Below are positions 1 to 51,700 of a stretch of 64,000 nt of DNA, piece by piece. The first letter of the stretch is position 1, and each line of letters opens with the position of its first letter. A program made the position numbers and the translations under genes. Source of the DNA: Udeniomyces pyricola (taxonomy: Eukaryota; Basidiomycota; Tremellomycetes; Cystofilobasidiales; Mrakiaceae); assembly GCA_039545295.1 (NCBI GenBank), contig BCIK01000011.1:662853-726852 (forward strand), in the 5' to 3' direction. The notes below the pieces were generated by a model, which saw only the letters and a list, made by a program, of their open reading frames with translations, was not told where the DNA came from and searched no databases.

Positions 1-546
1 GCCGAAGTCGAAGCCGAAGTCGAAGCCGAAGTCGAAGCCGAAGTCGACGCATCGCCTGCTCCTCGCCCTGCCTCTTCCATCCCGGACCCATCGATGCCTG
101 CGCCCTCTGTTACGCCATCGACCGTCGGCACGGGAGCCACCTCTTTTACCTCTTCGACCTCTTTGACCCCTTCGACCTCTTCGACCGCTCACTCTGTCGC
201 TGTCGACGCTGAGACGCCTTTGCTTGCCCCGGCTGTGGTTTCCTTCCCTGCCACGCGGACGTCTGCCCCGTCATCTGCCCCGTCATATGCTCCGTCATCC
301 TCCTCAACTTCATCTTTCGATGACGACAACAATGACGACAACAATGACGACAACGACCACGACGCCGACCACGACGAAGACGAAGACGATGGGGCCATCT
401 CCGACGCCTCGAGCGTTGTCTCCCACTCGAGCACGGCGCGCAGCCACCGATCTACGTCGTCTGGCTCGACGACGACGTCTCGACGCTCGATCAAGCCTAC
501 GGTGCGCGACTTTGAAGCGGATGAGGCCGAGTACGAGGTCATCTAA
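1..546 (+). CDS. 3' end of a BAG-domain-like gene (partial, inverted duplicate)
   Basis: This is an open frame running in from the left edge and ending in TAA at 544-546. It encodes a short Ala-Glu-Val-Glu repeat, then a Ser/Thr/Pro-rich stretch, an Asp/Asn acidic tract, a Ser-rich segment and the C-terminus EYEVI. It matches, base for base as far as I can read, the reverse complement of 27714-28263, the last part of the large minus-strand BAG gene. Identity holds to position 550, four bases past the stop, and then breaks off. The rest of this copy lies outside the window, so I cannot tell whether it is a complete second gene, a fragment or an assembly artefact. The apparent start at 94 is only an internal Met. 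Confidence 0.7.
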   Translation, partial: AEVEAEVEAEVEAEVDASPAPRPASSIPDPSMPAPSVTPSTVGTGATSFTSSTSLTPSTSSTAHSVAVDAETPLLAPAVVSFPATRTSAPSSAPSYAPSSSSTSSFDDDNNDDNNDDNDHDADHDEDEDDGAISDASSVVSHSSTARSHRSTSSGSTTTSRRSIKPTVRDFEADEAEYEVI

Positions 547-550
547 GATC

Positions 551-2145: not shown

Positions 2146-4075
2146 ATGCCTTCGCTCTTCTCCTCTCTCCGATCCAAGTCGACTCCCGCGGCCGGCTCGT
2201 CTCCCTCAGCCCGGCTCATCAAGATCTCGAAATCACTTTCCATCAACTACTACATCTCTACCCCAACCAAAGAATGTTGCTCGGCGAGCGAGATTGACAA
2301 ATCGATCCCGACGATCGTTTTCATTCATCCCGTGTTCATCGCGTCCGAGATCTGGCATCGTGAGTTTGCGGAAAATAAGGAGGCGGGGCGAGAACATCGA
2401 TCTCTGTCTCTGTTACATGGCTTAGTCATTCTAGATATGTTGACCGGCTGAAACAGTCCTGCCTGACGAGTTGCATCGACCATCACTGACATCAAACTCT
2501 CTTCCGGCCCTCCATGCAGAACAATTCACCGACCCAGAACTTCGCAAGTTTAATCTCGTTGGTACGTACTGGACACCGAGAGGACCCCTCGCTTGTCCGC
2601 AAGACTACGAGTTTGGAATTCTTTGAGAGATATTGACTTTGTGCCCTCATATATCTGCGTGCATATTTTGCCTATAGCTATCGATGCTCGCTCACACGGA
2701 GGCACTATTGGAGACGTTCCAAATGGGTATTCGTTTAAGGTAGGGAGCGAGCGTTTCTGTTCTTGAACGGCACGGTGTTATGTGAAGCATGATGCGTTAT
2801 TGTACTTATATCGTGTGAACGCGTCACATGCCTTCGAATTCATAGGACGCAGCAGACGACGTGGCCAAGTTTATGGTGTGTACCTTGAAAGAACGAAGCG
2901 AGTAAATCCGTCAGCGTGACCCTTTGTAACCGACGCGTCTTCTCATCTTGTGGTTGATGAATGGGATCAGGATCTGCTCAAACTTCCTCCATCCCACTTT
3001 GTCGGCGTGTCCATGGGTTCATCGATCTCCATTCACCTCGCCACATTTCACTCTCACCTCGTCCGATCACTCTTCCTCATCTCACCTCTCTCGGCGTACG
3101 AGCCGGAGGAAGTTGGGCAGGGTAGAGCGGAAATTTGGGAGGTTTGGCAGGAAGGAAAGGAGGTGAACACGCGTTTACTTTCCCTCGATAAGCCCTTCCC
3201 AACCAAAATAAACCACACTAACCTTTGCTTGGTTTGCTCCCATTCACTTGATGAGCAGAGGAAAGACGATGAGGTTGTGCGACAAGCTGCGATTGGAGCA
3301 TTGCAACTTGGCTTCAACAACGTCCATGGCGACTTTATTGATCGGTGTGTGAGCTTTCACCCTGCTGAGTTTTTCTTTTTTTACCCATGGCTAGGCTGAT
3401 GTGCTGCATCGAATCATGAACTTCGGATGTACAGCTTGACAGACGTTGCTCTGACTGCTTGCAACAAGCATTGGTCGACCAAAGAAGGGGTAAGCTTATC
3501 AAAACTCTTCCGTCTCCTTGATTTCTCCTCTTGATCAACTTCAACGTCTCAACATTGACCGTTTGTTGGGTTCACGACTCTGTCGCCTATGGTTTATTTT
3601 CTCCCATCTGACTGATCAGATTGAAGCTATGCGACGCATGACAGTCGCTCTCTTCCTCGATCGAACACCCCTTCCCGTCTCTGACCTCGCCCGTATCAAC
3701 CCATCACCACTGACCATGATTCACGCCATGGCTGATGTTGCCTACACCGACACGCATTTGCTGGAAAAGAAGAAGGATTTTGATGCCGCCGGATTGCAGG
3801 TCGAATTTTTGAGCATCAAGGGTGCACCGCACGTGAGTATCTCTCGGAAAATGAGCTTGTATAGGTTTTCCCTTATGAGGGCTTCGCATTGATTTTCTTT
3901 TTATTCGTTTCTTTCCTCCCTTTCCTAGTTTGCCAACGTCACCCACTCTGCTCAAATCAACCCACTACTCCTTCGCTTCATTCTCGCCAATTCAGATCCT
4001 TCAGCCGCCTCCCTGAAACCTGCGACTTGCCTGGTCTCGCCATTCGAAGAGGTTCTTTACCAGGGCGCCGATTGA
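2146..4075 (+). CDS. alpha/beta hydrolase-fold protein, 9 exons
   Basis: My model has exons 2146-2359, 2520-2561, 2678-2739, 2846-2875, 2971-3162, 3259-3344, 3435-3489, 3620-3832 and 3929-4075. It totals 1041 nt (346 aa), with all junctions GT..AG and in phase. Fold hallmarks in order are IVFIHPVF (oxyanion-hole region), a DARSHGGT strand-turn, the nucleophile elbow GVSMGSS (catalytic Ser in GxSxG), LFLISPLS after it, and a late histidine in KGAPHFANVTH. A candidate catalytic acid lies in the LFLDRTPLP segment. The family includes esterases, lipases and C-C hydrolases, and the sequence does not show the substrate. There is no signal peptide or membrane segment, so it is probably cytosolic. 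The Met at 2146 is the only start in frame with the fold. Exon 4 is only 30 nt. Confidence 0.85.
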
Positions 4076-5449
4076 TCTCTCGACGGCCCTCTTTCCTGCC
4101 CCCCCCCCCTCCCTCAAGCTTGAAGCCACGGTCGAGAACGTCCGAGTCGTCTTCTCATTGCTGTCTTGCTCTATATTCTTTTCTCTCGTGGTACGATCGG
4201 CGGTAGCTGATCGATGGTCAAGGCACTATACTCTGCTGTATTCCGCTTTACGTTTCATGATATCTCGCGATCCTCCCATCATTTTTTTTTTCTTCTCCTT
4301 CCTTGTTATACTTAAATTTTCACCTTGACTGTACAGGTGTGGATATTTGGTCTATCCCTCGACATACACGATCTGCTCGTTCAGCGCTCCGTCAGCTCTG
4401 ATATATCCCTCATCACCGACGTGCTTTCAAGTTTCACCTCTTATAATATATAGCTATTATAATTAGTGCAGTCGTCCATCTTCATTATTTTGTACTACTT
4501 CACTATTCGTTCGATCAGCTCTCTGCGCTGGTCGACGTCCAGCTTCCGGGCATATATGTTTCTTTGGTTCGTTCAATTATTCATGATTGGTGGAAGCTTC
4601 CAAGTCTGCACGCACGGCATGGCCGATAACGTATTACATACATACATATATATAGTTGTATCCGTGTAGGAGATCTAGTATACGTATGTGTCAACTTGAA
4701 TCATGTGGTACATACGGTATTGTAGGTGTTCCACATGGCGTGCAGTACAGGTGGATCACCGGCCGAGAGGGAAGAAAGAAACGTTTCGAAGAATATAGGA
4801 TGTGTATGTTCTATTGAATCATGCGCATTCGGGTCCGAGTCACAAGCGGATCTCAAGGTCTCATGATAAGTCTGATGCATGATGATCTGCAGCGATGTTG
4901 ACGGGATAAGAGCTGATGCAGATGATGAACATCTTGCAAGCTAGCTCTAGAAGATCATTCATCATTTCCATGCGCTCTTCACGCGCACGCGCGCGGGTCA
5001 AGCTATGCAGTAGCATGCGTGTGATGCTATTATATATAATTCCCATTCATGCGCATGCCACGTACGGGGCGGATGAGAATCGCGGAGGGAAGCGCTGCCG
5101 GTCGGATCGACGGGTGCCGAGCGCCGACTTGACTAGCAACCGTCTGTAGAAGATAAGAGCGAGTCGACCCGTATTGCATCGACCGGCCGAGGTCGCCGGC
5201 GACCACATGATACAGCTGCTGCATGATATGGTGCGATCCAATACCCCTTCCCTCCTTCACCTGCACGCATGCATACATGAAAGGATATTTGTGTGACTTT
5301 CTTTGTTAGTGTCGCTTTTCGTACTCATCGACCCACATTGTCACCACCTCTTGAACGACCTCCTTCTTACTCGACCATCGTCGTATAGCTACCGCCCGCC
5401 CTCATCTTTCCCCTTTCGATCCAAGCTAATTGACGACCAACGAACAAAC
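4076..5449. other. Intergenic, AT-rich in places
   Basis: No coding frame is supported. The stretch contains poly-T and poly-C runs near 4100-4300 and several short TATA/ATAT tracts (4450-4460, 4640-4650, 5030-5040). The CT-rich segment at 5340-5440 probably is the leader of the next gene. Confidence 0.55.
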
Positions 5450-15763: not shown

Positions 15764-18187
15764 TTATTCTCCGGTACCATCCAACTTTGCCGGTCCAGGT
15801 TTACTCAACGCTTCACCTGCAGCCGCCGCGACCGCCGCCGCGGCCGGTGAGCCCGATGCGTTGAACGAAGAAGGACCCGGTCCCGCGGAAGCGGAAGATG
15901 ATGAGGACGAGGTAGTGGTGGTGGTGGTGGTGAGATTGGGGTTCGTAGGAGGGGTCGAAGCTATACGAGCGTCGAGAGCTTTCAGGGCGAGTGCTCTGAG
16001 AAGAATGATAGAAGACGAAAGAAGAAGAGAGGAGGGAGAAGAAAAAGAGACACCGCGAGGAAAGTCGAATGGGGCAAGGGAGTGAAGATGGGTAAGTATA
16101 AGAAGGGATTTGGTTAGGATACGATACGATACAGACACAAGATTTTTCTGTGATTGTTTGATTCAAGGAAGAAGGAAAAGCAAAGAGATAGGACGAACCT
16201 TCGTCGTTCGGCTTCGGCTCTAGGTCCTCCGGGTCCTGGCAGGAGTGAGTACGCTCCTCCCGAAGCGTCCTCGCTACCCCAAGGTCGAACAAGCCGGAGC
16301 TTGACGCAGAGGTTGAAGACGGCGTTGGAGAGGATTGAAATGGGTTTGCTGTAGGGAGTTAAAAAAAAGCAAAGACAATGACGAAAGGACAAGAAAAAAA
16401 GAAAAAAAGAGGAATGAGAGATGAGACAGACAGAATCTCTTCCCTGTATGGACCTCCGAGGAAAGCACAGGAGAAGCGGATTTATCCCCCCCCCGGAACG
16501 ACGCAGACGTTTGGCGGAACAAAACGGAGTGTTGAGACAAGGGTGAGAGTCCTTGTGAGAGGGGACAGGGAAAGATATCGGATCGTTCTCCTTTTTCTCT
16601 TCTGCCCTCTTCCCCCTCTTATCGTCTCTTCCAATCCGTGCCTATCCCAGACTCAGAGACAGAATATAACCTCTGAAGTTTCCTCATACAGAAGCACCTC
16701 TCAAGACCCAGAGAAAAAGAGATACCAGCAACCAATCCAAAAAAAAAAGAAAGAAAAAAGAAAGAACGTACTGGGCGATAGGCGGGAACCAACTCGTAAA
16801 CGCAAACGTCTCGCTTCGATCGCCCCTAATCTCACCCCCGCTCCCTTCCTGCACCTTGACGAACCTCAAGTAAACCCAACCGGAAAAGAAGCCAAACTGA
16901 ATGATGATGTACGGGTTCTGGTTGACGGCGAGGGTAAGAACGTTGGAGATCAAGAGGTAGATCCCCGGCAAGTTCTTCACCCGCGTTTTCAGCAGACCGT
17001 TGAAGACTTGGACTTGGTGTTCCGGGATGAGTTGGGTAAAAGCGACGAGGAAGGCGGTCTGAAGGGCCGAGAGCCCATGTATGGTGCTACCGTAACTGTT
17101 TTGCCGAACGAGACAGCAGAAGAGTATTTTTTTTGGGGGGGGGNGGGGGGGGGGGGGGAATAGCATTTCGTTTGGCAGTATGAGCAATCTGAATCCGGAT
17201 GGATGGATCGTCGTTGGGCATCTGGGTACATATATCAAGGAGAAGGGAGTGACACGAACAGGAAGAGATCCGTATTGCCCAGCACAAACGAGAGAATCCA
17301 CGAGAGACCGACAGCGATGATGTTGGAAGCCACAATGACGACTAGGCAGAATTTGATGAGTTCTTTGGCTCCCCAGACCCTCTCGAGGTATCGAGCGCAA
17401 AGCGGGACCGAGATGAGAGAGACGATGAACTGCGAGATTGCGAAAGAGGCGGACAGGAAAGATGGTCAGCCAACAACTCAGTAGGGCGTCGTTGCAAGGA
17501 TCCGGAGGCCATTGACTGAGAAGTCGACCCCTCGGATGATCCCGTAAACAACGTTGAGCTCTTTGGTATCGGCTGAACCTCTGGACGTGTCAAGCGCTAA
17601 ATAGTCGCGGTCGAAACGGAGCCGCGAGCAAAGGCACCCGATGATTGTACGACTGACCTCGATAAGATTACCCTCTGCAAAGGCCGCGAGCAGGATCGTC
17701 CATGGTCGATAGAACACTTCTCCAGGGACGAGGAAGAGCCATGGATACAGTTGCCTCGGTGCGGGGTTGAAGAGTCCGTACTCGGTTCGAGACGTGGTGA
17801 GGCCCGAGGGGAAAGAAGAGGGAGAGTTGGAGATGGACGAGGGTGTGGTGACGCGAAGGAAGAAGCCGAGCGTGGAGACGACGACGAGAGTGAGCGTTAG
17901 ATAGCGCGTCGCGGGGGGGATCGAGCTGGATGGACGTGGAAGCAAGTGTAAAAGGATGAGATTGCGAACAGACAGAGAAAGCAAGGGGGAGGGGACAACA
18001 TATATCGGAAGAGTGGACGAGTTGAGGAATGCGCAGATATGCGAAAGGGAGAGAAGGGGGGGGGGGGGTCAGTCAATCAACTTGGTTTGGGCCAGACCAA
18101 CGGAACGTCCTGTGGGCAGGCGCGAGTCAAAGGTGGATATATGAGAGATGCTCACGCGAGCGCTGGAAGTATGTTGATGACGGGCAT
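15764..18187 (-). CDS. TMEM115: TMEM115/DUF1751 rhomboid-like Golgi membrane protein
   Basis: Exon 1 is 32 nt (18187-18156, MPVINILPALA). Exon 2 begins at 17925 with SIPPATRYLTLTLVVVSTLG, the first transmembrane helix. Later exons give LYPWLFLVPGEVFYRPWTILLAAFAEGNLIEV (read in parts), ERVWGAKELIKFC, ASNIIAVGLSWILSFVLGN, LSALQTAFLVAFTQLIPEH, NLPGIYLLISNVLTLAVNQN, IQFGFFSGWVYLRFVK and, near 16210-16270, LVRPWGSEDASGG. These are the features of the TMEM115 family (Pfam DUF1751), multi-pass Golgi proteins related to rhomboids but without protease residues and linked to retrograde Golgi transport. The tail has RALALKALDARIAS, then Thr/Ser and Ala low complexity. A poly-G tract with an N (17144) lies in an intron. 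The usual ORF start at 17984 would be TTG; the spliced ATG is better. Confidence 0.85.
17135..17158 (+). repeat. Poly-G run containing an undetermined base
   Basis: G homopolymer with N at 17144 inside an intron of the TMEM115 gene. The true length is unknown. It does not fall in coding sequence in my model. Confidence 0.8.
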
Positions 18188-18810
18188 GATGAAGAGCTTA
18201 GAAACGAGCCGAGCAGAAGCACAGCAGGCAGCTGAGACGAAAAGGTGAGAACGGGTCGAAACGGGGGTGGCTGTTGGTGTTGTAAGCAATGAGAAGCCGA
18301 TTGATTGTCTAGAGTGCTGTTGGCCGCGCGTGATGAGGATTGTCTGGGTTCGGTTCGTTTCGGTGTGGTGGATTCGGTGGGATTAGAGGGATGCTGTGAG
18401 TGAGCAGGCGAGGTACGAGATAGGTACGGATGGTTGATGTTGTGGATATATATGGGGGGGTCACTGCATGAAGAGCAGGTGTGTGTGAGTGGATCGTGTG
18501 TAGGCCGGCCGTAGGAACAGCATGGAGCAGCAACAAGAAGCGTGCAACAGCACACACATATAAGCACACAACCGATTATTGGCAACTGCGTTGTGATGGA
18601 TCGCTTGATCGCTTCATCGCTTCATCACCTTCTCCTCAACTCAGTACTCAATCGTCTCCTCCAGCCTGCACGTACCAGCTACTCATCGCCTACCTCATCA
18701 ACCCCGCTTCCGCATATACCCTCTTCCTTGCTCTCTCCTCCCTCCTCCCATTTCACTAGACAGTTCCTTCCCCTCTCTATCTCTCTTTCTTATCCATCCC
18801 CCCCTTCCCA
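18188..18810. promoter_or_regulatory. Divergent region between TMEM115 and gamma-COP
   Basis: About 620 bp separate the two start codons, which point away from each other. The right half (18600-18810) is strongly CT-rich, as expected for the leader of a highly expressed fungal gene. Both flanking products work in Golgi trafficking. No named binding site can be assigned by eye. Confidence 0.5.
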
Positions 18811-21800
18811 ATGGCTTCCATCTCCCTCTCCCTCGGGAAGCGGGACGACGACGCTGGTCCCATTCGTGCGTCCCCTAGCCTCACTCTGGCCTCTCCCTTT
18901 CCTTTCACCTCCTTTGTCCAATCTGAATCCCAATCTGACATTGTTTGCTCTGGCCCCCCTTCGCTTATCACCCTTGGTTTTATCTCTCCATCCTGCTCCC
19001 AATCCGAACCACCCATTCTCCACCATAACCCTGTTCTCCACCCTAGTGCACGACAAGTCAACCGTCATCCAAGAGGCACGAGTCTTCAACGAGTCGCCCA
19101 TCTCGCCCCGGAAATGTCGCTCGCTTCTCGCGAGGATCGTCTACCTCCTCTACTGTGGCGAGACCTTCACGGTCCAAGAGGCCACTCAGCTCTTCTTTGG
19201 CGTCACCAAGCTCTTCCAGCACAAAGACGTACGTCCCCCGTTCGGCGCGCGAACCATCTGCCCGCTTCGTTCTCCGCCTGTTGGCATCGCTAGCTACATC
19301 CTCTCCTTCGCTCTGCGTAGTGTTTGTCCCTGTTTGCACTTCTACTTGCCTGCTGACAACGTTCATGCCGCGTTTTTGCCTTGATCTCAACAGCCAGCTC
19401 TCCGTCAGATGATGTACCTCGTCATCAAGGAGCTTTCGCCCATTGCCGAGGATGTTATCATGGTCACCTCGTCCATCATGAAGGACATGCAATCTAACGC
19501 CGAGGTCATCTACCGCGCCAACGCTATCCGAGCTCTGTGCCGCATCACCGACGTGCGTGCTTGCTTTCTGGCTTGTTGTTATGGTTCATGTCGTCGTCTG
19601 ACCGTACTAATGCTAACGCGAACGCGACGCGTTCAATCTGACCTCTGACTGTGCCTCGGTAAACATCTATCAGGCCCAAGCCGTTCAGTCCGTCGAGCGA
19701 TTCCTCAAGTCGGCCATCGTCGATCGTTCGACCTCCATCGCATCCGCCTCGCTTGTTTCGGCCTACCATCTCCATCCCATGGCCAAGGAGATCATCAAGC
19801 GATGGTCCAATGAAGCTTCCGAAGCCCTCACTCCTAAATCTAACTCGCACAACTCGTCATCGTCCTACCTCGGCTTTGGAGGGTCCTCTTCTGGGAGCCG
19901 GGACCCGGCCGCGCAGGCAATCCAGAGCACGAGCTACATCACCCAATACCATGCCCTCGGTTTGCTTCACCTCATTCGACAGGGAGACAGGATGGCCATC
20001 ACGAAAATGATCCAGCAGCTCAGTGGAGGCAAGGGTGGAAGCGTTGCGAGCCTGTTGAGGAACCCGATGGCACTCTGCATGCTTGTTCGTTACGCCGGCA
20101 AGGTCATGGACGAGGACCCCAAGTGAGCGGATCCGTCTTTTTCATTCTTATCTTTTGTACTGCCGGACATACGGGTAGAATGGTCTACAAGAGGTGATAG
20201 TGTCAAGGAGACTCTTATGCTGATCATGTGGCTCTATGCTCTGCCCCTCCCTACTCTTCTCCTCGATTATCACCTACAGCGTTCAACTCCAAATGTTTGA
20301 GCTCTGCGAAAACTTCCTTAAACACAAGTCAGACATGGTCAACATTGAAGCTGCCCGTGTCATGTGCTCGATGAGGGGTGTCACCAACCAGCAGCTTGCC
20401 CGGCCTGTTCAGGGTTCGTCCCCATTCGCCCAAGCGTTTTCGTGCTTGTCACCTTTTGTTTCGCCACGCCATGGCTGACATTTCTCTTTCCCATCCTTGT
20501 CGTCCTCTCTTTCCAGTCCTCCAGCTGTTCATGTCCTCTAACCGATCAATCCTCAAGTTCGCCGCCATCCGAACCCTCAACCAGCTCGCGCAGACGCACC
20601 CGTCTGCCGTTGCCGTGTGCAACACCGAGCTCGAGTCGATGATCACCGACCAGAACCGATCGATGGCAACTATGGCCATCACCACCTTACTCAAGGTGGG
20701 CTCTAATTACTCTTTTGTTGCCTAAATCTTCTCGCTGTGTTAAAAACATCCTCCCAGAGGAGACGCGCAGATGACTGATGTGGTTTGTCCCTTGCTCGCA
20801 CACCCTTTTGCTTTCTGTGTCAATTGAATCTGTCCAGACCGGAACCGAGATCTCGGTCGATCGACTGATGAAGCAAATCGGAAGCTTCATGTCGGAATTG
20901 ACCGACGAGTTCAAGACGATTGTCGTCGAAGCTATTCGCTCGCTCTCGCTCAAGTTCCCCCAAAAGCAGGCCGGCATGCTCGTCTTCCTATCCAACATGC
21001 TCCGAGACGAAGGAGGGTACGAGTTCAAGCGAAGCATCGTTGAGGCCATCTTTGACATGATCAGATTCATCAAGGATTGCAAGGAGTCGGGTGGGTTAAC
21101 TTGATTTACTCGTGGCTGCATCCGCTTGGTCCTCATGCATCGTGCCATCTGACCTGTTGCCTTGATTCACTGTCTTTTTTCGTGTCCTCAGCCCTTGCCC
21201 ATCTCTGCGAGTTCATCGAGGACTGCGAATTCACCAAGCTCTCCGTTCGCATCCTTCACTTGCTTGGCATTGAGGGTCCCAAGACCCCCAACCCTACCAA
21301 GTACATTCGTTACATCTACAACAGGGTCGTCCTCGAGAACGCCGTCGTCCGAGCGGCCGCTGTTGCCTCGCTCGGCAAGTTTGGCGTCCAAGTTGGCGAC
21401 AAGGATGGAGGAAATGTCGGGAGAAGTGTGAGGGTACTCTTGAACCGATGCCTTGATGACGCCGATGATGAGGTCAGGGATCGAGCTGCCATGTACCTCA
21501 AGGTCCTCGAGGAGAAGAGCCTTGCCGAGGTTTACGTTCGAGAGGGTTCGTTGAATGCCTTTCATCCTTTCTTCCAAGAGCACATGTAGTGAGGGAGGGG
21601 GTGCGGACGACTGGAAGCTTACCATCGTTGCCTTCCAATTCTGCTTTACGTATTCTGCTTCGTACAGAGGCAACCTTCTCCCTTGCCGCACTCGAAGCCA
21701 AGCTGGTGTCTTATGTCAATGACCCCGAAGCCTCGGCCGTCGCCTTTGATGCTTCGTCGATACCCAAGATCAGCAGGGAGCAAGCCGCATTGGAGGTCGC

Positions 21801-23068
21801 CCGTAAGTCGGCGACTCAGTGGTTCTCTCTAGCGTGTCTGATACTGCCTTGGGAGTGATCTCGGCCGCTGACTTGGCATGGCCTTCTTGCTTGACTCATG
21901 ATCGCTGATAGGACCTTCAACGCTCGAGACGATGAACATTGGCATCAAGCCTCAGCAAGAAGTCGAGTCTGGCCCTGCCCCGACGGCCGCCGAAGCCCAA
22001 TCTGCCTATGCTGAGCAGCTTGCTGCTGTACCCGAGTTCGCCGATTACGGACCCGTTCACAAGAGCAGCCCGAAGCCCGTCGAACTCACCGAGAGCGAAA
22101 TGGAGTATGTCGTTACGGCTGTCAAGCACGTCTTCCAGGAGCACGTCGTCTTCCAGGTGAGAGAGATATCGGGGATTTTGTTTTGGTCCAACGGAGTTTG
22201 CCATGTCATCTAGACTGTGCGAACAAGGAGAAGAAGAAAGAACATTCGTGCTCACCCAGCGATGTGCTTTCTTTGATCATCAGTTCAACATTGCCAACAC
22301 CATTCCCGATACGGTCCTCGAGCAAGTCTCCGTCCTCATGCAACCGTCGGAAGACTGCGAGCTCGTCGAAGACTTCATCATTCCTATTCCCTCCCTTCCT
22401 TCTTCCGTTACTTCGACCGTCTACGTTTCCTTCACCCGCACTTCTGGCTCGTCCTCCTACCCCGTTGGCTCCTTCCCTTGCACGCTCAAGTTCGTGTCGA
22501 AGGAGGTTGACCCGGCTTCGGGCGAGCCCGAGGAAGATGGTTACGCTGATGAATACCAGATTGAAGAGCTGGAATTGGGAGCGGCCGACTACGTCATTCC
22601 GAGTTACGCGACCTTTACGAGCGAATGGGAGAGACTCGCCAAGGGTCAGACGGCCACGGAGGTGTTTGCGCTGAGCTCATCGGCGAGCTTGAAGGCGGCG
22701 TGTGATTCGTTGATCGAAGGTTGGTCTTTCCGCTCCTTCATTCTGTCTCCTTCTCCCTCTTTGTTACCTTTTCCTTGCCTCGATCATGCGTCTTTTGTAA
22801 CGAGTTGAGACTGACCCTGATGCTATCTGTGACCCTTTTGACTTTTCTTCTAATACCAGTCCTCGGTCTTGAGCCTCTAGGTGGAACGGAGCTGCCAACG
22901 TCGACCACAGTCCATACGCTCAACCTTTCGGGTATCGTCGCCGGCGGAGGCGGCAAGGTCCTCGCTCGCTCGAGGATGACCTTTTCCTCGGGCCAGGGCG
23001 TCACCTTGGAGTTGTCAGTTAGGGCGGAGAAGGAGGCGTCGGTGAACCTCATCATGTCGGCTATCTAG
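18811..23068 (+). CDS. SEC21: Coatomer subunit gamma (COPI coat)
   Basis: Exon 1 (from ATG 18811) encodes [18 protein letters not shown]. Exon 2 (from about 19046) continues with [20 protein letters not shown] and the N-terminal adaptin-like helical repeats ([36 protein letters not shown]). Following exons give [36 protein letters not shown], the trunk repeats ([52 protein letters not shown]), an acidic hinge, and the C-terminal appendage from about 22080 to the end ([35 protein letters not shown]). Stop TAG is at 23066-23068. Gamma-COP is part of the F-subcomplex that binds Arf1 and cargo on Golgi membranes for retrograde transport to the ER. The match is full length. There are about a dozen exons; one junction (20122/20281) makes an Asn codon in DPNVQLQMFE. 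Confidence 0.95.
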
Positions 23069-27713: not shown

Positions 27714-27717
27714 GATC

Positions 27718-30700
27718 TTAGATGACCTCGTACTCGGCCTCATCCGCTTCAAAGTCGCGCACCGTAGGCTTGATCGAGCGTCGAGACGTCGTCGTCGAGC
27801 CAGACGACGTAGATCGGTGGCTGCGCGCCGTGCTCGAGTGGGAGACAACGCTCGAGGCGTCGGAGATGGCCCCATCGTCTTCGTCTTCGTCGTGGTCGGC
27901 GTCGTGGTCGTTGTCGTCATTGTTGTCGTCATTGTTGTCGTCATCGAAAGATGAAGTTGAGGAGGATGACGGAGCATATGACGGGGCAGATGACGGGGCA
28001 GACGTCCGCGTGGCAGGGAAGGAAACCACAGCCGGGGCAAGCAAAGGCGTCTCAGCGTCGACAGCGACAGAGTGAGCGGTCGAAGAGGTCGAAGGGGTCA
28101 AAGAGGTCGAAGAGGTAAAAGAGGTGGCTCCCGTGCCGACGGTCGATGGCGTAACAGAGGGCGCAGGCATCGATGGGTCCGGGATGGAAGAGGCAGGGCG
28201 AGGAGCAGGCGATGCGTCGACTTCGGCTTCGACTTCGGCTTCGACTTCGGCTTCGACTTCGGCCTCGACTTCGGCCTCGACTTCGGCCTCGACCTTGACC
28301 TCGACCGCGACTGGTGAGGGGGTGTAGTCGGAGGCGGCAGCAGGCGAGGGTGTAGGAGCGGGCGAGGTTGCGGAAGTAGGCAAGGGTGCAGGAGTAGCGG
28401 CAGGCGTAGGGGTAGAAGTGGCGGCAGGCGTAGGGGTAGAAGTGGCGGCAGGCGTAGGGGCAGAAGTGGCGGCAGGCGTCGACGCCCGGTCCAGGTCCTC
28501 GAGCGCGTCCTCGAGCCGACGGACAAGCTTCTTGCGCTCACGTCGGACGAGATCCTCGCCATCGCTCTCCACAGCGTCGACCTCGAGCAGCAGCTTCTCC
28601 AGGACAAACGTCAGCTCGCGCGTCGAGAAGGAAGTGGGCGAAGTGGGCGTGGGCGTGGGAGTGGGAGTGGGCGTGTTGGTGGCCGAAGCCGGAGTGGGAG
28701 TGACCGAAGCCGGAGTGGGAGTGACCGAAGCCGGAGTGGGAGTGACCGAAGCCGGAGTGGGAGTGACCGAAGCCGGAGTGGGAGTGACCGAAGCCGGAGT
28801 GGGAGTGACCGAAGCCGGAGTGGGAGTGACCGAAGCCGGAGTGGGAGTGACCGAAGCCGGAGTGGGAGTGACCGAAGCCGGAGTGGGAGTGACCGAAGCC
28901 GGAGTGGGAGTGACCGAAGCCGGAGTGGGAGTGACCGAAGCCGGAGTGGGAGTGACCGAAGCCGGAGTGGGAGTGACCGAAGCCGGAGTGGGAGTGACCG
29001 AAGCCGGAGTGGGAGTGACCGAAGCCGGAGTGGGAGTGACCGAAGCCGGAGTGGGAGTGACCGAAGCCGGAGTGGGAGTGACCGAAGCCGGAGTGGGAGT
29101 GACCGAAGCCGGAGTGGGAGTGACCGAAGCCGGAGTGGGAGTGACCGAAGCCGGAGTGGGAGTGACCGAAGCCGGAGTGGGAGTGACCGAAGCCGGAGTG
29201 GGAGTGACCGAAGCCGGAGTGGGAGTGACCGAAGCCGGAGTGGGAGTGACCGAAGCCGGAGTGGGAGTGACCGAAGCCGGAGTGGGAGTGACCGAAGCCG
29301 GAGTGGGAGTGACCGAAGCCGGAGTGGGAGTGACCGAAGCCGGAGTGGGAGTGACCGAAGCCGGAGTGGGAGTGACCGAAGCCGGAGTGGGAGTGACCGA
29401 AGCCGGAGTGGGAGTGACCGAAGCCGGAGTGGGAGTGACCGAAGCCGGAGTGGGAGTGACCGAAGCCGGAGTGGGAGTGACCGAAGCCGGAGTGGGAGTG
29501 ACCGAAGCCGGAGTGGGAGTGACCGAAGCCGGAGTGGGAGTGACCGAAGCCGGAGTGGGAGTGACCGAAGCCGGAGTGGGAGTGACCGAAGCCGGAGTGG
29601 GAGTGACCGAAGCCGGAGTGGGAGTGACCGAAGCCGGAGTGGGAGTGACCGAAGCCGGAGTGGGAGTGACCGAAGCCGGAGTGGGAGTGACCGAAGCCGG
29701 AGTGGGAGTGACCGAAGCCGGAGTGGGAGTGACCGAAGCCGGAGTGGGAGTGACCGAAGCCGGAGTGGGAGTGACCGAAGCCGGAGTGGGAGTGACCGAA
29801 GCCGGAGTGGGAGTGACCGAAGCCGGAGTGGGAGTGACCGAAGCCGGAGTGGGAGTGACCGAAGCCGGAGTGGGAGTGACCGAAGCCGGAGTGGGAGTGA
29901 CCGAAGCCGGAGTGGGAGTGACCGAAGCCGGAGTGGGAGTGACCGAAGCCGGAGTGGGAGTGACCGAAGCCGGAGTGGGAGTGACCGAAGCCGGAGTGGG
30001 AGTGACCGAAGCCGGAGTGGGAGTGACCGAAGCCGGAGTGGGAGTGACCGAAGCCGGAGTGGGAGTGACCGAAGCCGGAGTGGGAGTGACCGAAGCCGGA
30101 GTGGGAGTGACCGAAGCCGGAGTGGGAGTGACCGAAGCCGGAGTGGGAGTGACCGAAGCCGGAGTGGGAGTGACCGAAGCCGGAGTGGGAGTGACCGAAG
30201 CCGGAGTGGGAGTGACCGAAGCCGGAGTGGGGGTGGGCGAAGCCGGAGTGGAAGTGGACGAAGTGGGAGTGGGAGTGGGAGTGGGCGAAAGAGGTCGAGA
30301 GAGCGCCTCGTTCAGCCGGCTCTCGAGCCGGCGCAGTCGAGTGAGCGAGGAAGGCGGCGTCGGCGCTTTGGCAGGCGGGCAAGAGTCGGGTCGAGAAGCA
30401 CCTGGAGAAGAAGCTCGGCTGGATGATGGGCCTCGGTTGGATGATGGACCTCGGCTGGATGACGGGCCTCGACTGGACGATGGCCGGGACGCAGGCAGAG
30501 GGACCGATGAGGGGACATCAGGGGCGTTGGCATTGGTGTTGGCATTGGTGTTGACATTGGTGTTGGTGTTGGTCTCGGTGTTGGTGTTGGTATTGGTGTT
30601 GGTGTTGGCTTCGGCACTGGCAGCGGTGGTCGCTTTTCGGGTCTGCATATAGGATGAAGCGGGGAAGCAGTGGACGGATAGGGGAACCACAAACGAATGG

Positions 30701-32729
30701 ATGGGAAGATGATGGAAGACAAACAGAGACAAACAAAGGCAAACAAAGGCAAACAAAGGCAAACAAAGACAAAGCACAAGGCGTCAGCATACAGCATCCA
30801 GATCGATCGCAACTTTGACGCAAACAGACAAAAAAAAAACAGGCACCGGCGAGAAAAAGAAAGAGAAAGAGAACAAGGGATAGTGGGAGGGATAGTGGGA
30901 GAGAAAGAGGGAGAGAAAGAGGGAAGGAAAGAGGGAAGGAAAGAGGAAGAGAAAGAGTGAAAGGATCAAACTGAACGAACCTGCAATCGGCCCACAAGCT
31001 GACGCTCTACCCGGGCAGCAAGCTCGGCAAGCGCACGCTCGAGAGAAGAGCGGCGCTCCAGCTGGGCGGGATGGCAACGCGATGAGGAGGTGGGGGCAGA
31101 TGCCTCAGTGGGCGTAGGGACAGGGACAGGGACAGGGGCAAGGGCAGGGGCGAGTGCAGGTGCAGGCGCGGGTGCAGATGTAAGAGTAGGTGCAGATGTA
31201 AGAGTGGGTGTGGGCGTAGGTGTGGGCGTAGTGTTCGTCTTGGTGACGGCATGGGGAACCTGAGCACGAGTTCGGTTCGGCGTCGGGCTCGGCGTCGGGC
31301 TCGGGGCCTGGGTCGGAGTCCGGGTCGGAGTCCGGGTCGAAGCCGCAGCCTTCGTCTGAGCAGGCGGCGCCTGGACACCGAGCAGAGCAAAGAACTCGAC
31401 AAGTGGGTCCGACGGCGCGCAAGCTCGCTCATGGTCGGCGCAGGGCAAGTCGATGGCGAGCTGATGTGGCCGATAGAGAGTGGCCGATAGAGAGTGGCCG
31501 ATAGAGAGTGGCAAGTGGCGAGGAAACGAAAGACGAGGGGAAGCAAAGCGGAGAAGGCGCAGAGGAGAGATGGCAAAGCGAGGATGCAAGGCGGCCGACA
31601 AAAGCAGAGAACGAGGGCAGTGTGGCAACAAAGGAAGACAGTGGAGGAAAGAAAGAAGGGAACGCAGACGTGAGTCAGTATCGGGCTGGATGGCTCGAGA
31701 CAGGACGCGGCAAGAGATCACCAGAGCAGGAGAACGAGATGGTGTGTAAAGAGAGCAGATCGAGGAGAGCAGATCGAAGAGAGCAGATCGAGGAGAGCAG
31801 ATCGAACGTACCTCGTGCTGTGGCTGTCGCGGCTGTCGCTGCTGTCGCTGCTGGCTCTGTCGCTCCCGCAACGCAGTCATCACCATCCTCTCCTCCTCGA
31901 CCTCCTCCCGTCGCTGGCGTTCGGCAAGCTCAGCCCGGACCCGGCGTGCATACTCGGCCGCCATCGCTTGTCGTTGCTGGTGCTGGTGCTGAAGCTGAAG
32001 TCGGAGCTGGAGCTGATGCTGATGCTGGAGCTCGGCCTGTTCCCTGGCGGCGGCAGCAACAGCGACGGCCGCGGCGTGCTCTCTCGCCTCGACCATCTGA
32101 GCCTCGAGCGCGAGCTGGCGATGACAATGGCGATGTCGATGGAGCCCATGCCGGTGAGGGTAGTCGTCTTGGTCATGCTGAGGGACGTAGTGCTGGACGT
32201 GGTGGCCGTGAGAGTGCTGACCGTGTTGGCCGTGCTGACCGTGGTGGCCGTGCTGACCGTGCTGATGGCAGGCGTGGCGGGCGTGGTGGGCGTGGTGGGC
32301 GTGGGGACCAGAGAGAACATGGTCTCGGTCGTGGTCTAGGTCATCGTCGCCGTCAAGGTAGTAGTGCTCGGACAGGTCGGCCAAGTGGTGGCGAGAGTCG
32401 AGATGACGAGGGTCGAGATGACGATGACGGTGGTAAGGGTGCTCGGCGTGCTCGGCGTGACCGGGGTGGACCGAAAGGGAGTAGGCCGCAAGGAGGTCGT
32501 CCGGCAGGTGGGCTCGCCGTTGCTGATAAGGGTGGCCCGCAGCGAGGAGTGGATGATGCCGGGCGGCGACCGGAGTGGCGACCAGACTGGCGAGCGGACT
32601 GGCGAGCGGCTGTTGGTGCTGGTGCTGGGGCTGGGGCTGGTCGTGGCGAAGGCGAAGACGATGGTGGTGGCGATGGGAGGAGAGCTCGTGGGCCGGCACG
32701 GTGTAGAGGGTGTCGAAAAGGCAGGACAT
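27718..32729 (-). CDS. BAG-domain-like protein with a giant intradomain TPTPASV repeat
   Basis: Exons 32729-31812, 31460-30981 and 30642-27718 give 4323 nt (1440 aa); all joins are phase 0. Exon 1 is His/Gln-rich (for example HGQHGHHGQHGQHGQHSHGHH in parts) and ends in a charged coiled-coil-like stretch (YARRVRAELAERQRREE). Exon 2 has EFFALLGVQA and a Thr/Pro-rich linker, ending LERALAELAARVERQLVGRL. Exon 3 has an Asn/Thr repeat, then the helix LTRLRRLESRLNEAL, then the 7-residue repeat array, then FVLEKLLLEVDAVESDGEDL and VRRERKKLVRRLEDALEDLD. The LDAVESDG..VRR..KKLVRR pattern is that of fungal BAG domains (Hsp70 nucleotide-exchange co-chaperones). I infer that the array lies between BAG helices. 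The C-terminus has Val-Glu-Ala-Glu repeats and an Asp/Asn tract. The BAG assignment is by eye; another helical bundle is possible. Confidence 0.7.
28211..28310 (-). repeat. 12-bp repeat coding for Val-Glu-Ala-Glu
   Basis: About eight tandem 12-bp units in the last exon of the BAG gene, differing only at the Glu codon third position (GAA/GAG). The inverted copy at the left edge of the window begins inside this tract. Confidence 0.85.
28681..30234 (-). repeat. 21-bp minisatellite, 74 units, in frame
   Basis: On the plus strand the unit begins GACCGAAGCC and ends GGAGTGGGAGT. Exact periodicity runs from 28702 to 30234 (73 units). I see 72 identical copies, then a last unit with one A-to-G change. 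One further variant unit, differing in one base, precedes it at 28681-28701. On the coding (minus) strand it reads TPTPASV. Because 21 is a multiple of three and no phase holds a stop, several frames on both strands stay open and give long shadow frames. The array makes about 36% of the predicted protein. Confidence 0.95.
30725..30772 (+). repeat. Short AGGCAAACAA tandem repeat in intron 2 of the BAG gene
   Basis: About four 11-12-bp units in the intron between exons 2 and 3, followed at 30890-30960 by an imperfect GAGAAAGAGG-type purine repeat. Confidence 0.7.
31465..31512 (+). repeat. 15-bp tandem repeat at the 3' end of BAG intron 1
   Basis: About three copies of a GTGGCCGATAGAGA-type unit lie directly upstream (minus sense) of the exon 2 acceptor. 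Confidence 0.85.
31752..31806 (+). repeat. 15-bp tandem repeat at the 5' end of BAG intron 1
   Basis: Four copies of a GAGAGCAGATCGA-type unit immediately follow (minus sense) the exon 1 donor. The intron thus has a different 15-bp repeat at each end. Confidence 0.85.
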
Positions 32730-34111
32730 GTTGATGTGTTGATGTGTGGATGTGGTGGGGTGTGGTGGGTTGTAGTAGGTTGTAGTAGGTTGTAGTAGGT
32801 CGTGGGTGTGGATGTGAGAGTGTGGATGTGAGTAGTAAGCGAGGTTAGGTTAGGCTAGGTGGGCAAGATGGAAGATGGACGTCAGTCGGATGGGAACGAG
32901 CAGTCAGCTTTTATTGGCAGAACGAATGGGGGTGCGTGTGCGTGTGCTGGCAAGGGTCTATATGTCAGCATGAGATGAAGACGTGGAAGGCATGAGGAAG
33001 TGATGACTCTTGGTGGAAGGATCGATGGAAGGATCCATCGGGTTCGAGAACCAATGCACTCGGCAAGGGACCCAACTGCAGGTCGACGTCGAAGGTTCCA
33101 TTCAAATGGACGTCGAACGACTTCGCCGAGCCGCGATTTTGTTTTCATGCGCGCTTCGACTTTTCGGCTAAGCCCGACGACGTCAGTGACACCTTGGTCA
33201 TCATCACATGGGTCATCACAGTTCAAAATGTACATGTACTGTACACGCCAATTCCTGGATCGTGCGTCACTAAATATCACCCTTGGGAGCGGCATGGTCC
33301 AAAGTCGGACCGTATATGTACAATCACCGCATAGTGAAGAATTGGACGTGTACTTATATACAGCCTAGAGGGTCTATATAGTTGCGTCTGGCTTCGAGCG
33401 CGCGTCGTCAAGCGTCGATAACACGAGCGGCACTACGTCGTATATACACAAATCAAACTTGCCGTTCCTGTAGGAGGTTGCGATCGAGATCAAGCTCACG
33501 TAGCAGTCTGATTTTGGCATTTACAACTAAATCAGAAGACCCTAAGAGAAATCGACATGCATATCAAATGTGCCGCAAACTCGAGCGATGATAAATCAGA
33601 CACACTGATAATGGGAGTTGATCTTTAGCTAGTAACACCAGAGGAAGATAGCCAAAATCAGATATACATATATAACATGATGGGTGATGTGCGTAGCTGA
33701 TGGAGCTGCAACGTGGGATCATATTAAATGACAGGCAATAGAAGACGGATCAACCAGCTTCATGGTCCTAAAGGAAAGGGATAATTATAGTTTACAGTGG
33801 CCGGTACGAAAGAGGTCAGGAGGGATAGTGAGGACGGTTGATGAAGAAAGGTCCTGCCTGTCTTGTCTTGTGTCCCACCATGTCGATGCACAGCATGGAC
33901 ATCTGTACCAAAAAAAAAAACGAAAAGAAAAAAACGTGACGATCGTAGCGAAACCAACGCAGTTGACCAACGTGTCGTACATAGCGAGTAAGAAAGTCAG
34001 CCAGGTTAAGCTTGACAAAATACCAACATATAGATGATGCTGCCACAAAAGCGCTCATCTTACCAGATGTTCTCGGTACTGACAATGGGATCACAACACC
34101 TGAGTATGACC
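32730..34111. other. Intergenic, BAG promoter with a GGTTGTAGTA repeat
   Basis: At 32764-32803 a 12-bp GGTTGTAGTA-type unit repeats three to four times, 35-75 bp upstream of the BAG start codon. The rest, to the 3' end of the second secreted-protein gene, has no supported gene. A poly-A run lies at 33910-33919. Confidence 0.55.
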
Positions 34112-39200: not shown

Positions 39201-40586
39201 TCATGGCGTGCAATGAGATCGTTCCGCCGGCATGCTCCGTCGGAACGAGGCCATGCTTCTTCTCGAGCTCGGATGTCCTGAAGCAAACCTGAGTAAAGAC
39301 ACAGCCAGTAGTGGCGTCAGTGTCCGAGTCACCCTCGTACGAGTATATAAGTCTGTTGACACATGCCTACCTTGGTGTTGGTCTGCGGCAAATGATCGGA
39401 TGGGCTCGTGACGTGCTTGAGATTGTTGAGCTCGCTGCCTGCAAAGAACCGCTTGGGTTTCGGCCTTGCATCATGTAGATGGATAGGCAGCTGTGAAAAT
39501 AGGAGGCCTAGCGTATCAGCCATTGTCTGCTATCGATGACTTCTGCCCCCAATCACAGTGAACACGAGANNNATTTGCGAAAAAAAAAAAAAAAAAAAAA
39601 AAAAAACGACCTTTTGGTTGATAGCCATCCATCCGATGCTGACGACTGTTGCCTTGACCTCAACGACAATTTCCTTGGACGGGTCTCTCGGGGCCGAACT
39701 GGAGAACCAGCCCGTTTGGGGCAGCGGTGGAAGGGTTGACACATCCGGGTAGAGCTCATCGGCCCTTCGACCGTGATCGAGCATGGCACCCATGTCTGCG
39801 ACTTTCCAGGTCTGACCCGTGGCTAAGAAATCAGAAAACATGATCAATATCAGCACACGAATATATGTAGTCCTGCTAGGGCTGATAGCCGATGACAATG
39901 AAGCAAAGAACAGACCTTGAACCTCGAGTGTGCCCTCCTCAAAGATCTCCTCGACGACACCGAGCCAGTCTTGATAGATGACCCGATCTCCGACCTCAGT
40001 CTGGAACATGAGAGCAAAAATAGCCAGTCAGCCCATATCTATCTAGCTATCGAGAAGACCCGTATGCCAACTGCCGACGGGCTCGGGTTGCTGCTTTCCT
40101 ATTTCGCCACACTTGGTGCTGGTCCCGATAACTTCCTTGGACCATCTCTACTTGGAACATTTCTGAAACACTCACTTTAAGTGCACCTTCAAGCTCATTG
40201 GATGAGACAAAACCCTCAAGTTGTTGACCACTGAGAACATGCTTGAGCCGGCAGCCGACCTCCACGCTCTTGACGATACCAGAAGCCTCGGACGCGTAGT
40301 CGCGTTTAACGACGTCACCCGGCTGCATGAGGCGGTCGATGAGCTCGACGTCCTCAGAGTTGATGATGTTGAGATTGCTCGCATCAGCAGCGGCGTCGGG
40401 AGCCCGAACAAGCGTCGAGATGCCGATCTCGCCAGGAAGCAAAGGTCGGTCGAGAGGATGGGGGGCCTGACCGGCTGGTGGATGAAGGGGGTTGAATTGC
40501 TCCTCGGCGGCAGTACGGAGGATCATGGCGACTTCAGAATTGGGACGCCTGATGATGTCGCCCTGAAAGAGCGCACGAGGGGCCAT
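36297..40586 (-). CDS. UBE2O: UBE2O-type ubiquitin-conjugating enzyme (E2/E3 hybrid)
   Basis: The gene starts at ATG 40586 ([20 protein letters not shown]) and ends at TGA 36297. The N-terminal half has SH3-like, conserved-region-type segments: [59 protein letters not shown] and [20 protein letters not shown] long acidic, Ser/Thr-rich linker follows (37700-38160). The UBC core begins with [19 protein letters not shown] and [20 protein letters not shown], then [45 protein letters not shown] and [18 protein letters not shown], where the Cys is catalytic. It continues [20 protein letters not shown] and ends [16 protein letters not shown]2O acts as a combined E2/E3, in animals on unassembled ribosomal and other proteins. 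The three Ns at 39570-39572 and a poly-A run are intronic. Confidence 0.9.
39570..39606. other. Three undetermined bases and a poly-A run in a UBE2O intron
   Basis: NNN at 39570-39572, then a run of about 26 A (39581-39606). In the minus-strand gene this is a poly-T tract inside an intron, so coding is not affected. Confidence 0.75.
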
Positions 40587-48762: not shown

Positions 48763-51700
48763 ATGCTACTCCACTTTTCCACCATTCGTCACCTTTCTCA
48801 AGTCGCGTGCCGGTCGTCGGCACGTCGTCCCGGCCATGATCTCTCATCATCAATCGCTCGAGTCGCGCCCTGCTCGCCAGTTGCCACCTCTGACCCCTTC
48901 TCATCGAATCACCCAACCTTGAGCCTTGTCCGATATCGGTCGAGCGTTCCTGCACGTCCACCCATCGTAATCCATCGCAAGCAATTCAAACAAACCAAGC
49001 TATCGGACAATCGAGTCGTCCAGACCGCCGCCAAAGTCGCCCCCCATCTCACCCGACTCATCACCAAGGGAGAAGTCTCCTCCGCCTTCACTGATCCACC
49101 CAAGCAGATCGGTATTAACACTACTCTGCTGATTAAACCTGAGAAACGATTCCGTGATTCGCTGGTGGCGGGTAAGATACACGCCCTAGCGGATCCTTAC
49201 CGAGACATCATCGAAATGGTCGAGGAGACGGGCGATATCCCGCCCATCACTGTCGACGAGGTTCGGCAGGCGATCCAACTCGTCAGTCAGTCCAAAGACG
49301 AACACTCGTGGTCCTTCCTAGAGAGCATGTTCGAAGACCTTCAACGCGTATTTCACACCATTCCCACTGGGGCCGACCATCGCGCCCTCATTCACTTCCT
49401 GGCTCGCTCGCCTACACCCCGGGCGGCGTTCCCACGGTTGGAGACCATTCCAATCGATATCGACATCAATATTGAGGACTTCAACGTCGTGATGGAAGGG
49501 CTCGCACGGGTCGGAGATCGCGAAGCCCTCATCTCAGCCATGGGCCAACTCGAGTCGCTTGACCTCAAGCCAGACATCCAGACGTTTCATCTCCTCCTCG
49601 ATGGATCGCTCGCCTTCCACACCCAGGAAGGATCTGACCTCTACCATCACTCGACAGCGAGCCACCTAGCACAAGAGACATCGTCTGATTCATCATCCAG
49701 TCCTCTGGAGAATCCTACCCAACCTTTTTCACCGACATCTTCTACTACATCTAATCCGTCCATCTCCTTAACGCCCACGTCGACGTCCATCTCAGCCTCT
49801 GCTTTCCCCACCAATCTATCTTTAAGTCTGACGCATGAAGTGGAATCGACGCTGGCTGATCTCACCAAAAATGGCCTTCGACCATCGTCTCGCACCTATG
49901 CCATTCTAGTGCGTGGGTTTGAGCGTCTCGGAGATGGTGCAAATCTTGAAAGATACCTTTCGCTCCTCGAATCATCTCTGGCGACCGAAGGCTCGGCCAA
50001 CACCGACACGCTCCCTTGGAATGTTCTGGTCTCTCTCGCCGCGTCCTCGTCGGCAACCGTCACCTCGATCCCTTCTTCATTTCCATCCTCCAGCTTAGAC
50101 TCCCGACGTTCTTCGCCCCTCGATGCCGCCCTCGCCGTTGTCAACCGCATGCGGACCTCTGGTCTTGAGGCCGATCATGCAACGGCCACTTCTATCCTTA
50201 GCTCGCCCTATATTCATGTCAACACCTACTCCGAAGCGAGGGCCCTGATCGACACAGTAGAGAGCCATCTCGATATGGACCTAGAATCAAGTCATTACGG
50301 CCTCCTTATTGACCAAGTCCTTCACCCAATGGACAGCCCTTCAACCGAGACCTCGCGTAACGACGCATTCCGAGTCTATCAGTACGCGTTGAGTCAGAAG
50401 GTTGGAGCCGAAGTCGAGGCGATCTTACCTCTACTGAGAAGCTACGCTTTACCGGAGAGTGGGTCGGCCAACTCGCGAAAAGCCCTCGATCTCTACAGCG
50501 ATTTACTCCGAACCGAGGCAAAGCATCACGCTGCCAATCTGGGAACGACCGTTTCAAGCTCATCGGCAGTATCAGCATCGTCTTCTTCCGGCAGTCCCTC
50601 ATCATCCATCAGTGCGCCTCTTCCATCGATGCCGAACCCAGCTTCTTCCTCAACCTCTCTGACGGCAACCGCTCCCTCTCAGTCATCACTCCCACCCGCA
50701 TATCCAACTCTACCGACGTTCCACACCGGTCCGACGGCCGAAGTCTACGACCTCCTCTTGATCGCTCTGACCTCTGATCCGAACGTTGAGAACCACGCTC
50801 AAGCCTGGCCGCTTCTCGCCGATATGACCATGCGAGGGGTCCGATTCGACGCCCCAACCACATCGTTCCACATCCGTCGTTTCATGAACTTCTCACGCGA
50901 CCACGCCGAAGCGTTCGATATTTACAACCGGTTTTATCAGAACGACCCGAGGTCGTTGGCAGAGAGCGAGAACGATTGGTTGACGGTCGTGAAGCACATG
51001 ATGTACTCGGATTATCCTAAATCCATCGCGCCACGACCGGACTACCTCTTCCACATGATTACCGATATGCGTCGGGCGGGGTTCGAGCCTAGTCAGAGGA
51101 TCATCGTCACGCTTCTCACACATTACGGTCGCATCAGTTATAGCTCAGTGAGTCATTTTTATTTTTGTTTTCCTTTCATGTCTTCTCGACGAGCCGGAGT
51201 TGCTGTCACATCGTTTTGTCGAGTCGAGAGACTGACTGACACACATTTTCTGTTGCGTCAATCTGATATCGTCTCGCTGGATGCTTACTTTGGTCCATCG
51301 TAGGCAGCCCAAATGGATCGCGAAAACAACGATGTCATCATGCAGAAGATGGAAGCCTACATCGCGCGAACCATTGCATGGGCTCGGATCGACCCATTCA
51401 TTCCCGTAAGCAATAACTCAGACCTTCGAAAATCTTCTTCTTTTCCCTCTTTCTCTTCTTCTTCCTTAAGCTTATAGTTGGCTTCATTGCGTCGGACCGT
51501 GAACCTCATGCCCCTCCTACTTGCTTTCTTTTTTGTTGGGTACGTTCCTGGCTCTTGGTCTTCTTCTAGCACGACGTCCTGACTCTCAACTCGTTCATGA
51601 ACGCCGAGACGCGTATCGGCAACTTCAAGGGCGCCTATGCCAACTGGCTCATCGTCTCCGAAAGTCAAGACCCAAACGTCGCCATGAACAACGCCTCTGT

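Follow-up and report, generated by a model that had tools for sequence, protein, structure and literature searches.

A tandem array of about 530 residues beside a BAG domain raises the questions of how it arose, whether it divides the domain and how far its assembled length can be trusted. In the window, the whole stretch of 64,000 nucleotides of Udeniomyces pyricola analysed here, TRF reports the array as single, with a period of 21 bp, 76.1 copies, 99% matches, 0% indels and a score of 3135; the unit number of 76 is a figure of the assembly. An exact string count gives 72 letter-perfect copies of GTGACCGAAGCCGGAGTGGGA, always spaced by 21 bp, with first bases from 28700 to 30191, and the units become degenerate at either edge. 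In the spliced minus-strand gene model the array is read in frame as 73 perfect TPTPASV heptads (residues 603-1113 of 1441). The initial annotation had described 74 units, 72 of them identical, as an in-frame TPTPASV array and had taken the homogeneity to imply very recent expansion, strong conversion or computed filling of the assembly. The counts and the frame agree with that description, and the high homogeneity fits a recent expansion.

A probe of nearly two units was searched with up to 3 mismatches against the 25.0-Mb genome (25,008,836 bases in 38 contigs), with counts of repeats being lower bounds. It gave at least 77 matches, 74 forward and 3 reverse, and every one of the 77 listed falls on contig C11, at the array and at an inverted sister. 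The reversed pattern of the probe, used as a control over the whole genome, gave 0 forward and 0 reverse matches, and a chance origin of the array is ruled out. Single-strand folding of the unit DNA is not unusual (z -0.53 and -0.98), so that no structural cause of array instability was found.

The 21-bp unit is open in five of six frames, so that an uninterrupted frame across the array does not by itself argue for coding; the same property accounts for the long spurious frames on either strand. What supports coding is the BAG match that follows in the same frame, together with differences between gene copies that keep the frame. The hand-made gene model, predicted from sequence alone, has three exons, GT..AG introns in phase 0 and a product of 1441 residues (Table 1). 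Within a predicted exon, a tandem in-frame array with a unit divisible by three constitutes an intragenic coding minisatellite, and such an array was found here. Tandem repeats also make up 906 of the other 2,724 coding bases of the gene (33%) versus 461 of 58,111 bases (0.8%) in the rest of the window, so the gene is repeat-prone in general. Pfam at E 1 gave no ubiquitin family in exon 3 or in the open frame that covers exons 1 and 2 and runs through intron 1.

Table 1. Features of the array-bearing gene and its sister copy, with positions in the window
Feature	Position	Strand	Evidence
21-bp coding minisatellite	28679..30277	-	TRF, exact string count, translation
Copy B of the inverted duplication	27714..33054	-	Self-BLAST, alignment, genome searches
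3' end of copy A, identical to the reverse complement of 27714-28263 (550/550)	1..550	+	Self-BLAST
Predicted exons 1 (32729-31812) and 2 (31460-30981) with intron 1 of 351 bp; His/Gln-rich, Pro/Thr-rich	30981..32729	-	Hand-made model
Predicted exon 3 with array, BAG hairpin and acidic tail; preceded by intron 2 of 338 bp	27718..30642	-	Open frame, model
N-terminal flank with short predicted helix SSLTRLRRLESRLNEALS, proposed as BAG helix 1	30277..30399	-	No Pfam family; join/scramble test; AF2 residues 20-32
BAG alpha2-alpha3 hairpin, C-terminal of the array	28480..28641	-	PF02179 (E 3e-9); BAG4 1m62 (E 2.7e-5); AF2 model
Second coding array, unit 12 bp (EAEV), 7.4 copies	28217..28305	-	TRF

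The alpha2-alpha3 hairpin of BAG proteins bears the Hsp70-binding residues. The segment that follows the array had been proposed to be BAG-like, and this is borne out by a match to PF02179 (37.7 bits, E 3e-9, profile positions 35-78 of 78, cut-off 23.4) and by a PDB search that retrieves human BAG4 (1m62) at E 2.7e-5. Both genomic copies score 37.4 bits against PF02179. An AF2 single-sequence model of 62 residues (28480-28665) shows two helices with a mean pLDDT of 70.9, and a Foldseek search with the hairpin model gave no PDB match at E 10.

Read by position off the BAG4 alignment, the residues equivalent to Asp222 and Arg237 of BAG1 are retained, and those at the positions of Glu212 and Gln245 are Phe and Glu, the same in both copies. 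According to the part of PMC6467101 that was available, Glu212, Asp222, Arg237 and Gln245 are the residues with which BAG-1 binds Hsc70, and the BAG protein of Botrytis likewise has not conserved Glu212. In yeast Snl1, the accessible text of PMC3962485 states that replacement of E112 or R141 by alanine abolishes the interaction with Hsp70, and a table there pairs R141 with R237 of BAG-1; by its numbering, E112 would be the equivalent of Glu212. Binding of Hsp70 by the present protein is plausible but not certain, because two of the contact equivalents are retained and two changed, while in Snl1 E112 and R141 are both required.

Another BAG locus is present in a different gene at C7:1006657-1006788, where the contact Asp, Arg and Gln appear by eye to be retained. 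Protein searches with the hairpin region rendered no homologues among the 7,986 top word-sharing candidates or among the 443 and 77 that followed (thresholds 0.01 and 10); the query of the search with 7,986 candidates extended into Pro/Ala repeats, and these are likely to have taken up the word list. In the limited literature collection covered, no reports were found of BAG domains with intragenic tandem repeats in fungi or of proline-rich BAG domain proteins of Basidiomycota.

It had also been suggested that a helix before the array and the hairpin after it form one BAG domain split by the array. The BAG assignment holds for the C-terminal flank, but the splitting is unproven and the N-terminal helix is not supported as BAG helix 1. 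The possibility raised in the initial annotation that the repeat is surface-exposed is not supported either. The N-terminal flank alone matches no Pfam family. Joined to the hairpin with the array omitted, the helix gives 37.7 bits against PF02179, compared with 36.9 and 37.7 bits for the hairpin alone in pieces of 52 and 54 residues, a gain of at most 0.8 bit. Four hand-made scrambles of the helix, joined in the same way, score 37.4, 37.4, 34.7 and 37.1 bits, corresponding to changes of -2.2 to +0.5. The match of the joined piece begins at profile position 28, in residues past the helix, and the protein of the sister copy with its naturally short array matches profile positions 33-77 only. 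Against BAG4 in the PDB the joined piece reaches 27.0 bits and the hairpin alone 27.6, and the alignment of the joined piece extends into the helix without a gain in score. Since the helix adds neither profile nor PDB score over the hairpin alone, a position of the array inside the domain is unproven; it lies just N-terminal of the putative Hsp70-binding half.

A three-helix domain that is truly interrupted, with helix 1 before the array, helices 2 and 3 after it and about 550 residues looped out, is unlikely on this evidence. The AF2 model of 640 residues with the array does place helices in the right relative order (20-32, 593-611 and 616-639), and in the sister copy the two elements are only about 60 residues apart. 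Some BAG proteins of basidiomycetes may have a naturally occurring linker that separates helices 1 and 2, but none came up in the searches made here. However, the 640-residue model was made without an alignment and has low confidence (mean pLDDT 51.1, and 32-37 near the first helix), with the packing not resolved. The gain from the helix is also no larger than that from scrambles or from a slightly different cut of the hairpin, and a helix-like stretch at the end of exon 2 could, by eye, serve equally well.

The best evidence on the timing and manner of array growth comes from the sister copy. A 200-bp probe from beside the array matches twice in the genome, in the window and inverted at C11:658607-658806, and two further probes, one from exon 2/intron 1 and one from the promoter, likewise match twice, so that by these three probes the gene has two copies. 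Copy A (approximately C11:655890-663402, its last 550 bases being the first 550 of the window) and copy B are convergent and inverted, with about 27.2 kb of other sequence in between. Beside the array difference they are identical at 1,547 of 1,547 positions on one side and 476 of 476 on the other, and with the 3' end included at all 2,573 positions compared; the similarity ends 4 bp beyond the stop codon. The array itself has about 5.2 units (approximately 109 bp) in copy A and 76.1 in copy B. The length difference between these two paralogues of one genome is 1,491 bp in the assembly, exactly 71 x 21. Within the 2,573-position stretch the copies differ solely by the 71 units and by an assembly gap in the 12-bp array.

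Further towards the 5' end the copies are less alike. The part of copy A at positions 3192-4167 of the adjoining stretch L004, comprising exon 1, the start of intron 1 and 158 bp upstream, differs from copy B by three single substitutions, one N, a cluster of seven substitutions and four indels of 30, 93, 12 and 28 bp. By their TRF units three of the indels are whole local tandem units (30 = 3 x 10, 28 = 2 x 14, 12 = 1 x 12), and the 93-bp indel is not. Near the start codon copy A lacks the 93 and 12 bp (window 32717-32598 versus L004 3361-3376), an in-frame exon 1 deficit of 105 bp or 35 codons, and the frame is open in both copies. The seven substitutions all fall within 17 bp that belong to a 9-bp repeat (window 31861-31845 versus L004 4113-4129), a pattern that resembles the boundary of a conversion tract or a rearranged repeat. 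Past the 28-bp indel near this cluster, 1.5 kb is identical between the copies.

At the outer 5' end the identity is 88% over 230 bp and 82% over a wider stretch, and the flanks beyond are unrelated. Because this outer end has diverged and yet the copies agree letter for letter over the greater part of the gene, with intron 2 and the bulk of intron 1 included, the near-identity is best read as recent homogenisation by gene conversion, or as the result of polishing both copies with the same reads. The array difference would then have to be younger than the homogenisation. Misplaced alleles of a single locus were also considered and are disfavoured; the unrelated flanks beyond the duplicated segment point to two loci.

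Eighteen pieces from the spacer between the copies, out of 81 open frames of at least 110 amino acids, were scanned with Pfam. At E 0.1, seven of the 18 have a family, namely coatomer gamma appendage (one), Adaptin_N (four), Ras-type GTPase (one) and alpha/beta-hydrolase (one, just below the cut-off), and 11 have none. The Adaptin_N pieces and the appendage probably belong to one coatomer gamma subunit gene, which lies between the inverted copies at 18515-22805 and apparently has several introns. A pentatricopeptide repeat protein is encoded at 48763-51303 (PF13041, E 3.5e-13). A mating-type origin of the inverted repeats was dropped; the six STE3 matches are on contigs C16 and C27 and none is on C11.

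The quality of the assembly bears directly on the number of units. Copy A contains a gap of 3,810 Ns (L004 6191-10000, C11:659043-662852) that begins and ends inside its 12-bp EAEV array (window 1-47), with one base missing compared with copy B, and a large EAEV expansion may be present in copy A. In the window, one to three Ns occur at 17144, 26967, 27502 and 39570-39572, at three of the four places in or beside G or C homopolymers. Near-identical segments with STE3 are found at C16:611374-614917 and C27:25833-29376 (2 mismatches in 3,544 bp); the one on C27 starts 52 bases past a gap of at least 5.78 kb of Ns, and the start of the one on C16 is the edge of the stretch compared. Ns in homopolymers together with long N gaps are a signature of short-read assembly, and the pattern suggests an assembly of this kind that was unable to span 1.6 kb of identical units. 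The array of copy A is trustworthy and that of copy B less so, because approximately 109 bp fits within one read and 1.6 kb does not.

It is possible, although doubtful, that the array exists and its length is a product of the assembly, gap filling having rolled out the 21-bp cycle to an estimated distance. In its favour are the 72 letter-perfect units among about 76 and the contrast between one array that fits a single read and one that does not. The Ns in homopolymers, the 3,810-N gap inside the other tandem array of the sister and the further near-identical duplicate segment near a gap on C27 point the same way. On the other hand, the degenerate edge units on both sides resemble those of natural arrays, and arrays of unequal length in the two copies would be hard for a purely k-mer-based fill to assign. 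Instead of being an artefact of length, copy B could be decaying or dispensable, with copy A and the BAG gene on C7 doing the work, which would leave its array unconstrained in growth and perhaps detrimental to the protein. The two copies plus a third BAG locus, and the two of four Hsp70-contact positions that are non-consensus, are compatible with this, but the reading is improbable: both copies are open in the exon parts compared and identical over their 2,573 shared positions, and the non-consensus residues are common to both and thus no mark of decay in copy B.

The preferred explanation, to which a probability of about 0.6 is given, is that the array is a recent in-frame expansion by slippage or recombination that is tolerated as a disordered spacer in one of two homogenised BAG paralogues. 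The starting point would be about five 21-bp units, a state still seen in copy A, and replication slippage or recombinational exchange in copy B would then have added approximately 71 units; the direction, a gain in B and not a loss in A, is presumed. With a unit length of 21, divisible by three, the added units leave the frame unbroken. The expansion would be later than the last event that made both copies identical. In the protein the array forms an uncharged Thr/Pro spacer of about 530 residues, presumably disordered, just before the alpha2-alpha3 hairpin. Because this hairpin carries the Hsp70-binding residues in BAG proteins, a tolerated spacer is the simplest reading, and if the gene is expressed and active, Hsp70 binding may persist with only the tether lengthened.

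In a further reading, which is quite speculative, the arrays are paired: copy B has expanded the 21-bp TPTPASV array, copy A has expanded the 12-bp EAEV array hidden in its 3,810-N gap, and gene conversion keeps the remainder identical, so that the pair would act as a continuing source of BAG co-chaperones that carry one or another long disordered segment. Very unlikely is a function of array length as a tunable Thr-Pro tether under proline-directed kinases, on the principle of the RNA polymerase II tail heptads; the evidence that favours it is the composition (146 TP motifs in 73 perfect heptads) and the approximately 15-fold difference from the sister.

Compared with BAG-domain Hsp70 exchange factors such as BAG4/SODD, BcBAG1 and Snl1, the protein shares the alpha2-alpha3 signature and the Asp222/Arg237 equivalents. 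It differs from them in that helix 1 has no profile signal, the Glu212/Gln245 equivalents are changed, a heptad array of about 530 residues precedes the hairpin and tandem repeats occupy one third of the remaining coding bases. Unlike the UBL-BAG proteins of the BAG1/BcBAG1 type, it gave no match to a ubiquitin-like family in any piece that was scanned.

In fungi, cell-surface proteins are the best-known hosts of coding minisatellites. The minisatellites of yeast FLO1 and HPF1 are similar to the present one in being in-frame tandem arrays that differ in length by whole units, for which slippage or recombination is expected. They are in cell-wall or surface proteins according to the available excerpts of the sources, whereas here the array is in a BAG-domain gene. 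The heptads of the RNA polymerase II C-terminal domain are rich in proline and hydroxyl residues and share with the array a seven-residue, 21-bp unit and expansion and contraction at the DNA level; the heptad is different and homology is not claimed. In yeast the array that encodes this tail expands and contracts, with RAD52 required for expansion, 36 isolates have 24-26 repeats and the DNA is reported to be G-quadruplex-like, as described in the accessible portion of PMC4882425.

The locus is thus another intragenic coding minisatellite in an unusual host gene. Its array adjoins the putative Hsp70-binding half of a BAG gene, and the same genome offers a natural control that is nearly identical and has about five units. 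The pair of copies allows direct tests of whether a helical co-chaperone can accommodate some 500 residues of spacer, and of the rate at which coding arrays grow in copies that are alike elsewhere.
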